A DNA stretch of 64,000 bases from Niveispirillum irakense DSM 11586 (GTDB lineage Bacteria; Pseudomonadota; Alphaproteobacteria; Azospirillales; Azospirillaceae): contig NZ_KE386934.1 of the NCBI RefSeq assembly GCF_000429645.1, positions 496,001 to 560,000 of the forward strand, read 5' to 3'. The translations under genes were made by a program, and so were the position numbers. This document shows, piece by piece, positions 34,781 through 41,455 of the stretch; the stretch's first letter is position 1; every line of letters starts with the position of its first letter. The notes under the pieces were generated by a model. That model worked only from the letters and a program-made list of their open reading frames with translations. It did no database searches and was not told where the DNA came from.

Positions 34781-36331
34781 TCAAGCCGACAAGGCGACCG
34801 GTGCTGTCTTCTGCCGCTTGGTCACCAGCTTGTTCAGCGCATGGATATAGGCACGCGCCGATGCCACCAGCGTATCGGCATCCGCTCCCTGGCCATTGAC
34901 CGACTTGCCATTCTCATCCAGCCGCACCGTCACTTCCGCCTGGGCGTCGGTTCCTTCGGTCACGGCATGAACCTGATAGAGCTGCAGGCTCGCCTCATGC
35001 GGGAAAGCCAGCTTCAGGGCGTTGAAGACGGCATCGACCGGACCATTACCAAAGGCGACGACCGGGGCGATGGGCTTACCTTCCACTTCCAGTTCCAGCA
35101 CCGCATGCTGCGGCCCGCGGGAGCCGGCAACGACATGCAGGGCCTGGAAGCGGATATGCTCATGCTGACGGCCCGCCTCGTCATCCATGATGGCGACGAT
35201 ATCTTCGTCGTAGATGTCCTTCTTGCGGTCGGCCAGATCCTTGAAACGGCCAAAGGCGTCATTCACCTGATTTTCGCCGATATCATCATAGCCAAGCTCC
35301 TTCAGCTTGGCGCGGAAGGCGGCGCGACCGGAATGCTTGCCCATGACCAGCGAGGACCGGTTCAGCCCGACCGATTCCGGCGTCATGATCTCATAGGTTT
35401 CAGCGTGCTTCAGCATGCCATCCTGGTGGATGCCGCTTTCATGCGCGAAGGCATTGGCACCGACGATGGCCTTGTTGGGCTGCACCTGGAAGCCGGTGAT
35501 GGTGGAAACCAACCGGGAGATGCGGGTGATATGCTCGGTCTTGATGCCGGTATCGCAGCCGATCAGGTCATGACGGGTGCGCAGCGCCATCACCACCTCT
35601 TCCAGGGAGGCATTGCCGGCGCGTTCACCCAGGCCGTTGATGGTGCATTCCACCTGGCGCACGCCGGCACCGATGCCAGCCAGGGAGTTGGCGACAGCAA
35701 GGCCCAGATCATTATGGCAATGGACGGAGAAGATCGCCTTATCGCTGTTCGGCACGCGGGTCATCACGTCGCGGAACATGTCGGCATATTCTTCCGGCAG
35801 GGCATAACCCACCGTGTCCGGAATATTGATGGTGGTGGCGCCGGCCTTGATGGCGGCTTCCACCGTCCGGCAGAGGAAATCACGCTCCGACCGGCTGCCA
35901 TCCTGGGCCGACCATTCCACGTCGTCCACCAGATTACGGGCATAGGTGACGTAATCGATGGTGCGCTGAAGCACCTCCTCTTCCGTCATCTTCAACATAT
36001 ACTTCATATGCACCGGGCTGGTGGAGATGAAGGTATGGATGCGCTTGCGCTCGGCGAACTGCAACGCCTCGGCGGCGCGATCAATATCGGCGCGGGCGGT
36101 ACGGCAGAGGGCGGCGATGATGCTGTTCTTCACCACCTTGCCGACTTCGCGCACGGATTCGAAATCGCCGTTCGACGCGATGGGGAAACCGGCCTCGATC
36201 ACGTCGACGCCCATTTCCTCCAGCACAGCGGCAATGCGCAGCTTTTCCTCCAGATTCATGGAACAGCCGGGGGCCTGTTCACCATCACGGAGGGTGGTGT
36301 CGAAAATGATGACGCGGTTGCTGCTGGTCAT
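34781..36331 (-). CDS. leuA: 2-isopropylmalate synthase
   Basis: This 516-residue enzyme condenses acetyl-CoA with 2-oxoisovalerate, the first committed step of leucine synthesis. The HMGL-like catalytic barrel begins IIFDTTLRDGEQAPGCSM and holds the metal site VHCHNDLGLAVANSL near residue 205; a LeuA dimer domain and C-terminal regulatory domain (leucine feedback) follow. The frame extends 41 codons upstream in Arg/Pro-rich sequence; the ATG at 36331 is the family start. It is preceded by a leader peptide gene rich in Leu codons. Confidence 0.97.
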   Translation of the reverse strand: MTSSNRVIIFDTTLRDGEQAPGCSMNLEEKLRIAAVLEEMGVDVIEAGFPIASNGDFESVREVGKVVKNSIIAALCRTARADIDRAAEALQFAERKRIHTFISTSPVHMKYMLKMTEEEVLQRTIDYVTYARNLVDDVEWSAQDGSRSERDFLCRTVEAAIKAGATTINIPDTVGYALPEEYADMFRDVMTRVPNSDKAIFSVHCHNDLGLAVANSLAGIGAGVRQVECTINGLGERAGNASLEEVVMALRTRHDLIGCDTGIKTEHITRISRLVSTITGFQVQPNKAIVGANAFAHESGIHQDGMLKHAETYEIMTPESVGLNRSSLVMGKHSGRAAFRAKLKELGYDDIGENQVNDAFGRFKDLADRKKDIYDEDIVAIMDDEAGRQHEHIRFQALHVVAGSRGPQHAVLELEVEGKPIAPVVAFGNGPVDAVFNALKLAFPHEASLQLYQVHAVTEGTDAQAEVTVRLDENGKSVNGQGADADTLVASARAYIHALNKLVTKRQKTAPVALSA

Positions 36332-36500
36332 GGTCTTAATCCCTGAAACCCGAACGCCACGGGGGCGTGAAATCATTGGATGGCGGGCAAGGCACCGGCT
36401 TCGATAAGGGGCCTGACCCGGTGGTCGGATCGGCGGCGCGCGATGCGCGCCCAATTCCCCTGAACGCGGGATCCATCCGGGCAGGATGGAAGCGGGGCGC

Positions 36501-36593
36501 TCAGGGGCTGATTAGTCGAAGCCCGTCCAGGCCGAACGCGGCGGGCGCCAGCAGCAGGGACAGGGATAGCGGCAAGCCGGACGCGCGCAGCAT
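36501..36593 (-). CDS. leuL: leuA leader peptide, Leu-rich
   Basis: This short frame encodes 30 residues, ten of them Leu, including a core with LSLSLLL near residues 9-15 and GLDGLRL near residues 21-27. It ends 169 bases before the leuA start. The following leader RNA holds several stems, e.g. CCATCC/GGATGG and GGCGCGC/GCGCGCC. Leu-codon-rich leaders upstream of leuA are known in alphaproteobacteria as ribosome-mediated attenuators; here the terminator stem with a T run is not obvious, so the exact switch is inferred. Confidence 0.7.
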   Translation of the reverse strand: MLRASGLPLSLSLLLAPAAFGLDGLRLISP

Positions 36594-36842
36594 GACGCCA
36601 GCGCGGGAAAAATCCCGGGCGGTGACGTTCGGCTGGCAGCGATGCGGGGTCACGGGCGGTGATCCTGGTCCGGTTGCACAAAAAGGTACGGGGCCTTTCA
36701 AGGCCAACCTTGGTTGGAATTGTTTTAAGCCGCAATTCGGTTAGCCGCAACAGCTTTTGTCAGGCACGTTTCTATCGTCAATGCAGGGCAGAAATGCCGG
36801 AAATTTCACGGCAGGCTGCTTTCCTTGCCCAAATGGTACTTC
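36594..36842. promoter_or_regulatory. Promoter region of the leuL-leuA unit
   Basis: On the minus strand TTGCGG and TAAAAC separated by 17 bases give a plausible promoter (about 36725-36755) for the leader and leuA. Between it and leuL are two perfect inverted repeats, GGCCTT-TC-AAGGCC (36692-36705) and CCAACC-TT-GGTTGG (36704-36717), which may fold in the leader RNA or serve as operators. The right end of the gap is the 3' flank of the coiled-coil gene. Confidence 0.4.
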
Positions 36843-37918: not shown

Positions 37919-38956
<1,038 letters not shown>

Positions 38957-39008
38957 TCAGTCAGATGTAAGATGGATTGCCGGGTTGCCGGCGTTCTGGG
39001 GGTAAGCT

Positions 39009-39521
39009 TTAGAAGGCGCCCGTGCCGCGCGACAGGGCGACGGCACCGGTGCGGCTGACATCAACAAGGCCCAGTTGCCGCATCAGATCGATGAAGCGGT
39101 CCAGATCCTCACCAATGCCGGTGATTTCAAAGACAAAGCTGGTGATGGTGGCATCCACCACACGGGCCTTGAAGATGTCGGCGATGCGCAGCGCTTCCAC
39201 GCGCTTGTCGCCCGTGCCGACCACCTTCACCAGCGCCATTTCCCGGTCGATGAAGGGGCCTTCCAGCGTCAGGTCCTTCACCTTGTGGACGGGCACCAGC
39301 CGGTCAAGCTGCACCTTGATCTGTTCAATGATCATCGGCGTGCCGGAGGTGACGATATTGATGCGCGACAGGCTTTCGTTGCTGTCGACCTCGGCCACCG
39401 TCAGGCTTTCGATATTATAGCCACGACCGGAGAACAGGCCGATGACGCGGGCCAGAACGCCCGGCTCGTTATCAACCAGGACAGAGATGGTGTGGCGGCG
39501 GATGGGGTCTTGGGTGGACAC
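39009..39521 (-). CDS. ilvN: Acetolactate synthase small (regulatory) subunit
   Basis: This 170-residue regulatory subunit has an N-terminal ACT domain (HTISVLVDNEPGVLARVIGLFSGRGYNIESL, residues 9-40) that binds valine, and a C-terminal ALS_ss_C domain. Translation appears to start at GTG with a GGGAG ribosome site. It is the partner of the large subunit encoded 65 bases upstream. Confidence 0.95.
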   Translation of the reverse strand: MSTQDPIRRHTISVLVDNEPGVLARVIGLFSGRGYNIESLTVAEVDSNESLSRINIVTSGTPMIIEQIKVQLDRLVPVHKVKDLTLEGPFIDREMALVKVVGTGDKRVEALRIADIFKARVVDATITSFVFEITGIGEDLDRFIDLMRQLGLVDVSRTGAVALSRGTGAF

Positions 39522-39586
39522 TTGCAGAAGCTCCCTGAAGGCGGGCGATACCGGGTAGGTTAAAAAGGGTTTGGAGAGGTCCGGGA

Positions 39587-41353
39587 TCAGACCAGTACCA
39601 TCCCCTCCTCCGGTGTCGCGTCGCTCACCCGTTCTTCCGGTCCCAGCAGCATTTCATTATGGGCCTTGCCGCCGGGGATCATGGGGAAGCAGTTTTCCTT
39701 CTGATCGACGCACATATCCACGATGACGGGGCGCGGCGTCTCGATCATTTCGCGGATGACATCATCCACTTCCGACACTTTGGTGGCGCGCAGGCCGACG
39801 CCACCAAAGGCTTCCGCCAGCTTCACAAAGTCCGGCAGCGCCTCGGAATAGCTTTCCGAGTAGCGGGAGCCGTGCAGCAACTCCTGCCACTGGCGCACCA
39901 TGCCCATCCATTGATTATTCAGGATGAAGACCTTGACCGGCAGGCGATACTGCATGGTCGTGGCCATTTCCTGGATGTTCATCATGATGGACGCCTCACC
40001 GGCGACATCGATGCACAGCGCACCGGGATTGGCCACCTGGGCGCCAATGGCCGCCGGCAAGCCATAGCCCATGGTCCCCAGACCACCAGAGGTCAGCCAG
40101 CGGTTCGGCTTGTTGAAGGGCAGGAACTGGGCCGCCCACATCTGGTGCTGGCCCACCTCGGTAGAGATGAACACATCATCCCGGCCGGCAACGGCGGCGC
40201 GCAGACGCTCCAGCGCATATTGCGGCTTGATGACCTTGTCGGTCTTCTCGTACTTCAGGCAATCCTTGGACCGCCAGACCGCGATCTGGTCCCACCATTC
40301 CTTCAGCGCCGCCTGATCAGCCCGCTTGTTGCGCGCCTTCCAGATGCGGATCATGTCTTCCAGGACATAGGCCGCATCGCCCACGATCGGCAGATCGACA
40401 CGAATATTCTTGTTGATATTCGACGGATCGATATCGATGTGGATCTTCTTGGAATTGGGGCTGAACTCGCTGACCTTGCCGGTGACACGGTCATCAAACC
40501 GCGCCCCGACCGAGATCATCAGGTCGCAGCCATGCATGGCCAGATTGGCTTCGTAGGTACCGTGCATGCCCAGCATGCCCAGCCATTGCTGATCATGGGC
40601 GGGATAGGCACCCAGCCCCATCAGCGTGGTGGTGCAGGGATAGCCCGTCATGCGGACCAACTGGGTCAGCAACTGGCTGGCCACCGGGCCGGAATTGATA
40701 ACGCCACCGCCGACATAGAAGATGGGGCGCTTGGCATTGGCCAGCATCTCCACCGCTTCCTCAACCTTGTTCAGGTCGGGCTTCACCTGCGGGCGATAGC
40801 TCTTGGGCAGGCATTCACCGGGCAGACGATAGGTGCCATCGGCGAACTGCACATCCTTGGGGATATCGATCACCACCGGGCCCGGGCGGCCCGACTTGGC
40901 GACATAAAACGCCTCATGCAGGGTGCGGGCGAGGTTGTTGACGTCCTTGACCAGATAATTGTGCTTGGTCGCCGGACGGGTGATGCCGGTCGTGTCGCAT
41001 TCCTGGAAGGCATCATTGCCGATCAGATGGGTCGGCACCTGCCCCGTCAGGCAGACGATGGGAATGCTGTCCATCAGCGCATCGACCAAGCCGGTAACGG
41101 CATTGGTGGCGCCAGGGCCGGACGTGACCAGCACGACGCCGACCTTGCCGGACGAACGCGCATAACCTTCCGCCGCATGAACGGCCGCCTGTTCGTGACG
41201 TACCAGGATGTGACGGATGTGGTTCTGTTTGAACAGCGCATCATAGATGGGTAGTACCGCCCCGCCCGGATAGCCGAAAATGGTATCGACACCTTGGTCC
41301 CGCAGGGCCTTGATGACGATTTCAGCACCGGAGAGGATAGTTCCCGACGACAT
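39587..41353 (-). CDS. ilvB: Acetolactate synthase large subunit
   Basis: This 588-residue thiamine-diphosphate enzyme is the first common step of branched-chain amino acid synthesis. It has the N-terminal FGYPGGAVLPIYD with the catalytic Glu in RHEQAAVHAAEGYARSSG, the central FAD-binding domain, and the C-terminal ThDP/Mg motif GEASIMMNIQE with ILNNQWMGMVRQWQ. The frame begins 18 codons earlier; the ATG at 41353 gives the family start MSSGTILSGAE. Confidence 0.97.
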   Translation of the reverse strand: MSSGTILSGAEIVIKALRDQGVDTIFGYPGGAVLPIYDALFKQNHIRHILVRHEQAAVHAAEGYARSSGKVGVVLVTSGPGATNAVTGLVDALMDSIPIVCLTGQVPTHLIGNDAFQECDTTGITRPATKHNYLVKDVNNLARTLHEAFYVAKSGRPGPVVIDIPKDVQFADGTYRLPGECLPKSYRPQVKPDLNKVEEAVEMLANAKRPIFYVGGGVINSGPVASQLLTQLVRMTGYPCTTTLMGLGAYPAHDQQWLGMLGMHGTYEANLAMHGCDLMISVGARFDDRVTGKVSEFSPNSKKIHIDIDPSNINKNIRVDLPIVGDAAYVLEDMIRIWKARNKRADQAALKEWWDQIAVWRSKDCLKYEKTDKVIKPQYALERLRAAVAGRDDVFISTEVGQHQMWAAQFLPFNKPNRWLTSGGLGTMGYGLPAAIGAQVANPGALCIDVAGEASIMMNIQEMATTMQYRLPVKVFILNNQWMGMVRQWQELLHGSRYSESYSEALPDFVKLAEAFGGVGLRATKVSEVDDVIREMIETPRPVIVDMCVDQKENCFPMIPGGKAHNEMLLGPEERVSDATPEEGMVLV

Positions 41354-41455
41354 GGCGCGCGCTTTCAGATCAGTTCCAACGAGGTTGAAAAACGCCGCTT
41401 CTCGCACAGGCGAAAGGCGACGATGGCCGCACCCTAGATGGAACCGAAAAGCCGG

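Follow-up and report, generated by a model that had tools for sequence, protein, structure and literature searches.

The classical leu attenuator of the gamma-proteobacteria (leuL), which we take to be the Rfam family Leu_leader (RF00512), is one of several systems with which an alphaproteobacterial leuA leader can be compared. In the erm and cat translational attenuators, stalling of a ribosome on the leader exposes the ribosome site of the gene that follows. For the Alphaproteobacteria themselves, Vitreschak and co-workers are said to have predicted in 2004 that the ilv leaders are transcription attenuators. Corbino et al. (2005; PMC1273637) describe five other alphaproteobacterial motifs and also mention a leader peptide of ilvB. 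According to Seliverstov et al. (2005; PMC1262725), the LEU element of actinobacterial leuA is a leader with a run of Leu codons before leuA and without a terminator. These authors propose that the Leu codons pair with the leuA Shine–Dalgarno sequence, leave the mechanism unresolved, report a pseudoknot for actinobacteria, put forward binding of a regulatory protein or helicase with the Leu codons acting only as RNA, and cite an experiment against a role of the Leu codons in the actinobacterial case. For the alphaproteobacterial leuA leader we found no description in the open-licence literature, and a subscription journal may have carried a prediction before. No leader family of Rfam 15 was recovered for the window (the whole stretch of 64 000 nt analysed here) or for 10 relatives, at the gathering score or in relaxed searches; the matches in the window at the gathering score were tRNAs only, and relaxed matches were rejected as implausible.

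The leucine-rich frame upstream of leuA

The leuA gene of the window (34781–36331, minus strand) encodes a 2-isopropylmalate synthase of 516 aa, as judged from its translation and from matches above cut-off to both TIGR00973 (705.7 bits) and NF002087 (862.2 bits), and the protein is 97% identical to LeuA of Niveispirillum sp. SYP-B3756. A short way upstream, at 37919–41407, the minus strand also carries ilvC, ilvN and ilvB, and no branched-chain-rich leader frame was seen before ilvB in the window. The first-pass annotation had described a 30-codon frame with ten Leu codons, three of them in a row, ending 169 bases before leuA, and when the sequence was read again these figures proved exact. 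The frame (36501–36593, minus strand) runs from an ATG at 36593 to a TGA at 36503–36501 and encodes MLRASGLPLSLSLLLAPAAFGLDGLRLISP, with Leu at 10 of 30 codons by translation and the run of three at codons 13–15; the 169 bases at 36500–36332 separate it from the leuA ATG at 36331, whose Shine–Dalgarno sequence is AGGGA (36340–36344, minus strand). This richness in Leu is more than chance, the leader frame being the only one of 262 short ATG frames in the whole window (nearest ATG to the stop, 20–60 codons) in which at least one third of the codons are Leu.

The 30-codon frame lies inside a longer GTG frame, and the leader very likely begins 20 codons further up, at GTG 36653, which would give a probable full extent of 50 codons ending in LRLISP-stop (36501–36653, minus strand). 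In an alignment with genus relatives, a GTG-ACC start with AGGA upstream was aligned in four loci (L007, L008, L009 and L016). A candidate promoter, TTGCGG-N16-TTAAAA (36723–36750, minus strand), resembles blocks found in genus relatives, and a sigma-70 consensus scan did not pick it up. The several stable stems reported behind the frame were borne out by folding, since the region 36325–36600 reached −126.1 kcal/mol (z −2.47), a value as low as this being obtained in 3 of 200 shuffles.

The conserved leader end and the stop-codon hairpin P2

The family search supplied 30 leuA loci and contigs of named genomes another 80, 110 in all. Of these, 77 had upstream a leader end that follows the pattern CTN-(CGA or CTN)-CTN-xxx-xxx-CCC(or CTC)-stop, which may also be given as CTN-CGA/CTN-CTT-A..-..C-CCC-TGA, and 33 had none. 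In the window, the comparison with relatives placed it at the 21 nt CTT CGA CTA ATC AGC CCC TGA (Leu-Arg-Leu-Ile-Ser-Pro-stop; 36501–36521, minus strand), within the match to the covariance model R1. Among 83 dereplicated motif-carrying loci, which include loci from a later whole-genome search, codons −6 and −4 before the stop were Leu in all 83, a count conditioned on the search motif, which already demands or favours Leu at these positions; codon −5 was CGA in 51 and CTN in 30, codon −1 was CCC in 79 and CTC in 4, and the stop codon was TGA in 78. The loci are related by descent, so that counts across them are not independent. The Leu codons of the leader end were thus kept in relatives wherever the motif occurs, and the refuting outcome named in the first-pass annotation, Leu codons not conserved in relatives, did not arise. 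The middle of the peptide, including the triple Leu, was poorly conserved: genus relatives whose LeuA is 92–93% identical (L010–L015) had few Leu codons there and kept the C-terminal LRLI(S/T)P-stop. The triple Leu was rejected as a conserved control site.

Directly behind the Leu codons, the stretch CCCCUGA, which includes the stop codon, pairs with UCAGGGG about 20–50 nt downstream to form a hairpin that we named P2. Its arms in the window, CCCCUGAGCGC (5′ arm, 36497–36507, minus strand) and GCGUUCAGGGG (3′ arm, 36457–36467, minus strand), were assigned from covariation on alignment A1 and from the match to R1 (36524–36453, 54.7 bits), and it is certain that P2 and the leader end are present in the window's own sequence. 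In the alignment of 58 of 60 dereplicated loci, the 11 pairs of P2 were formed in 91.8% of 637 cells, with double-sided changes at 7 pairs; the observed value was reached by 0 of 500 shuffles on each of five measures, and sliding the partner by 1–3 columns lowered the pairing to 26–53% (maximum 52.8%). Where CCC becomes CTC (Pro to Leu), the partner arm changes from G to A, and where UGA becomes UAA or UAG, it changes from C to U, indicating that the constraint acts on the RNA. A constraint on the peptide at Pro-stop, as in an arrest peptide, is disfavoured because the Pro to Leu changes are compensated in the partner arm.

The CCCC:GGGG part of P2 is nearly invariant, and its primary sequence is therefore conserved beyond the needs of pairing. 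This, together with a leader end conserved as nucleotides rather than as peptide, would fit a reading in which a regulatory protein or helicase binds to P2 and to the pairing P1 described below, the Leu codons being important as RNA alone. We regard this as quite improbable, since the whole class retains a reading frame in which two fixed codons are Leu, and Leu makes up 32% of the last 15 leader codons, compared with 12% of the 15 before.

We searched 190 alphaproteobacterial genomes with R1 and obtained 58 matches at E≤0.001, of which 53 lay directly upstream of leuA on the same strand, 3 preceded a LeuA truncated at the contig boundary, and 2 preceded a 2-isopropylmalate synthase of another, distantly related class. 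Seen from the genes, 57 of the 89 LeuA places in these genomes had a match and 32 had none. Reading 20 of the latter revealed Leu-rich, perhaps degenerate leaders in a few (L177, L179, L181 and L182), and no convincing leader was found at most of these 20 places. A search across the phylum (200 genomes) gave 33 genomes with matches at E≤0.01, 31 of them within the class; of the two weak matches outside it (E 0.005–0.008), in L168 and G400, the former was inspected and showed neither a matching leader nor a LeuA match. GC-rich sequence yields many open frames and the mid-peptide is poorly conserved, as would be expected if the Leu-rich frame had arisen by chance in GC-rich DNA and P2 were an unrelated hairpin; but the rarity of so Leu-rich a frame in the window, the strength of its R1 match and the fact that the one strong match in its genome precedes leuA make this extremely improbable, and as regards the element it is already refuted. 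The comparison across species thus supports the earlier claim of a leucine leader peptide and structured leader RNA before leuA.

Within the class, Methylobacterium bullatum (59.4 bits) and Phaeobacter inhibens (30.4 bits) carry the element, and Paracoccus carries it weakly (15.5–15.8 bits). Strong elements occur, for example, in Xanthobacter and Methylobacterium (loci L089 and L149). The Paracoccus loci (L147 and L150) have a divergent version in which the leader ends in LLLLTLR-stop, the stop hairpin is GCGCUGAGCGG:CCGCUCAG, and the ribosome site AAGAAGG can pair with CTTCTTCTT; since a TATAG-like −10 is found near the start of the leader, its mRNA may be leaderless. In one alphaproteobacterial family (L162, L163, L164 and L167), the element stands about 60–150 nt before a 2-isopropylmalate synthase of the TIGR00970 (yeast/actinobacterial) class, the two proteins tested (L162 and L167) matching TIGR00970/NF002991 above cut-off, whereas LeuA of the window belongs to TIGR00973. 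Before this class of gene, the hairpin sequence is altered and the pairing kept (CCCUUAA:UUAAGGG, and CCCUUGG:CCAAGGG in L162). Among the 45 genomes of genus g3 in the family search (G002–G046), the window's LeuA had a close orthologue in G018 alone (E 6.6e-238), the best matches in the other 44 reaching about 1e-46 to 1e-60; this genus may have exchanged its leucine enzyme.

Predicted pairing of the leader with the leuA ribosome site

To evaluate the pairing P1 between the leader Leu codons and the leuA ribosome site, we computed the energy between the leader segment −33 to −6 from the stop and the segment −30 to 0 before leuA at 60 loci, and obtained −17.12 kcal/mol as compared with −14.43 (sd 0.38) for shuffled sites. 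In the same test, other leader segments and another target segment showed background pairing only, and leader segments further upstream, considered as partners of the ribosome site, were null. To tell co-evolution from a tendency of Leu codons to match ribosome sites in general, we then swapped leaders and sites between species after composition correction. In the 68 loci outside the window's family, the native value was −3.76 and the permuted value −0.92 (sd 0.37), with 0 of 10,000 permutations reaching the native one, while two control regions were null. When the whole stretch behind P2 was offered, 32 of these 68 loci were individually at p≤0.05, the clearest cases, long and covarying, being L081, L096, L097, L127 and L077. 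One of the sequences GUCG, UCGAA, UUGAA and GUUGA occurs close to the site in 23 of 51 loci whose leader has CGA, and in 1 of 30 whose leader has CTN (Fisher p 3e-5). Outside the window's family, the Leu codons therefore pair with the leuA ribosome site beyond chance. At L143, leader and leuA are separated by a small gene, judged cupin-like by eye, which is the first of a cupin-leuA operon; it is to the ribosome site of this first gene that the leader's Leu codons are complementary, and the pairing falls there.

In the window and its own family the pairing was weaker. Only 3 of 15 family loci were individually at p≤0.05, the permutation value was 50 of 10,000, the dinucleotide-shuffle test was not significant (13 loci), and in the window alone the Leu-codon segment against the leuA site gave p 0.45. 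The minimum-energy fold contains a candidate P1 between GGCUUCGA in the leader codons (36516–36523, minus strand) and UCGAAGCC (36397–36404, minus strand; z −1.1, p 0.11), 66–73 nt before the leuA ATG, which leaves the ribosome site uncovered. One minimum-energy fold also pairs AUCCCUG, in the leader codons CTA TCC CTG (36561–36567, minus strand), with the leuA site CAGGGAU, at a probability of 0.13 in the longer transcript. How open the site is in the models varies with the assumed start of the transcript: openness was about 0.5 to 0.66 along the second half of the 50-codon leader, the position of the ribosome barely mattering, and 0.37 to 0.56 for the shorter transcript. Since P1 is weak in this lineage, the step that would hide the site is inferred there from relatives.

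We propose, as the reading we consider probable, translational attenuation of leuA in response to leucine. The Leu codons at the end of the leader frame could pair, as RNA, with the leuA ribosome-site region, and the stop codon of the frame sits in P2 directly behind. With leucyl-tRNA plentiful, ribosomes would complete the leader and depart, P1 and P2 would form, and the leuA site would be hidden; with leucyl-tRNA scarce, a ribosome would halt on the Leu codons and cover the 5′ strand of P1, P2 would still be able to form, and the leuA site would stay open. Translation of the leader, stalling of the ribosome and a response to leucine are presumed in this scheme; on the sequence side it is supported by the conservation of the leader end, by covariation in P2 and, outside the family, in P1, by the link to leucine-synthesis genes and by the lack of a T-tract. 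Leader–site pairing beyond chance outside the family supports translational attenuation. In models of 83 loci, placing a ribosome at the Leu codon (−21) raised the mean openness of the site from 0.35 to 0.52, with an increase of more than 0.05 in 63 loci and a decrease of more than 0.05 in 7. No terminator-like site was found on the leuA strand of the window, and the T count in the 8 nt after P2 was at background level over 83 loci (1.45 versus 1.30 expected). An intrinsic terminator was thus rejected, bearing out the reported absence of a T-tract, and this absence together with the rise in openness favours translational attenuation sensed through leucyl-tRNA.

The lack of a T-tract would also suit transcription attenuation without an intrinsic terminator, in which the leader ribosome gates the access of Rho to the 169 nt stretch. 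Many species have about 80–250 nt between leader and leuA, and in the window and some relatives (L043, L044, L060 and L101) the partner sequence of P1 is located upstream of the ribosome site and not on it, which would suit a decision at the RNA level. We nevertheless consider this unlikely, since covariation is specific to the ribosome-site region (−30 to 0), with none at −62 to −32, and P1 and P2 together would presumably leave little unstructured RNA for Rho. The first-pass annotation had offered Rho and hiding of the leuA site side by side; covariation in relatives makes hiding the better alternative, although the window's own pairing is weak. Of the layout of ribosome-mediated attenuation that it had recognized, the Leu leader and the structured RNA stand, while there is no intrinsic terminator and the triple Leu is not conserved.

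Comparison with known systems

The ilv leaders of the same class are also branched-chain amino acid leader peptides, and serve a different gene. With the gamma-proteobacterial leuL attenuator, the element shares a leucine leader peptide with pathway control codons upstream of leuA, but no T-tract terminator stands behind the alphaproteobacterial hairpin. As in the erm and cat attenuators, a stalled leader ribosome is predicted to open the site of the next gene; here, however, the signal would be uncharged leucyl-tRNA instead of an antibiotic, and the leader codons themselves would be the anti-Shine–Dalgarno strand.

The element resembles the actinobacterial LEU element in sequence and, by analogy, probably works like it. 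A Leu-codon leader peptide lies directly upstream of leuA in the Alphaproteobacteria too, and pairing of Leu codons with the Shine–Dalgarno region is supported at the level of the alphaproteobacterial class, the window itself offering a low-probability candidate. Four actinobacterial leuA regions (L189–L192) had Leu codons followed by a hairpin about 130–275 nt before leuA; their opening sequence closely resembles the alphaproteobacterial leader end, and L190 and L192 carry CUUCUUAGCUGCCGCG. R1, a short motif, matched two of the four in the right place (18.1 bits, E 0.0014, and 16.8 bits, E 0.0032, over 43.8 kb of sequence), and these two have the stretch CUUCUUAGCUGCC in common. The leaders of rhizobial leuA of a TIGR00970-like class (L194–L196) look intermediate in form. 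The alphaproteobacterial element differs from the LEU element in that the leader stop lies inside the hairpin (CCCCUGA:UCAGGGG) and in that its host genes are mostly TIGR00973, not TIGR00970. Common descent of the two is possible on these sequence resemblances, convergence being the alternative.

We put forward, as a tentative idea that may well prove wrong, that one leucine-sensing leader RNA, with its Leu codons as the anti-Shine–Dalgarno strand, serves leuA in both Alphaproteobacteria and Actinobacteria, that it tracks function rather than protein, given that both the TIGR00973 and TIGR00970 classes have it upstream, and that the alphaproteobacterial branch moved the stop codon into the hairpin. 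The proposed attenuator would explain for the whole class how Alphaproteobacteria control the first step of leucine synthesis. It would be a clean example of codons with two jobs, as amino acid sensor and as anti-ribosome-site strand, and through it the mechanism of the actinobacterial LEU element would become testable in easy laboratory strains.
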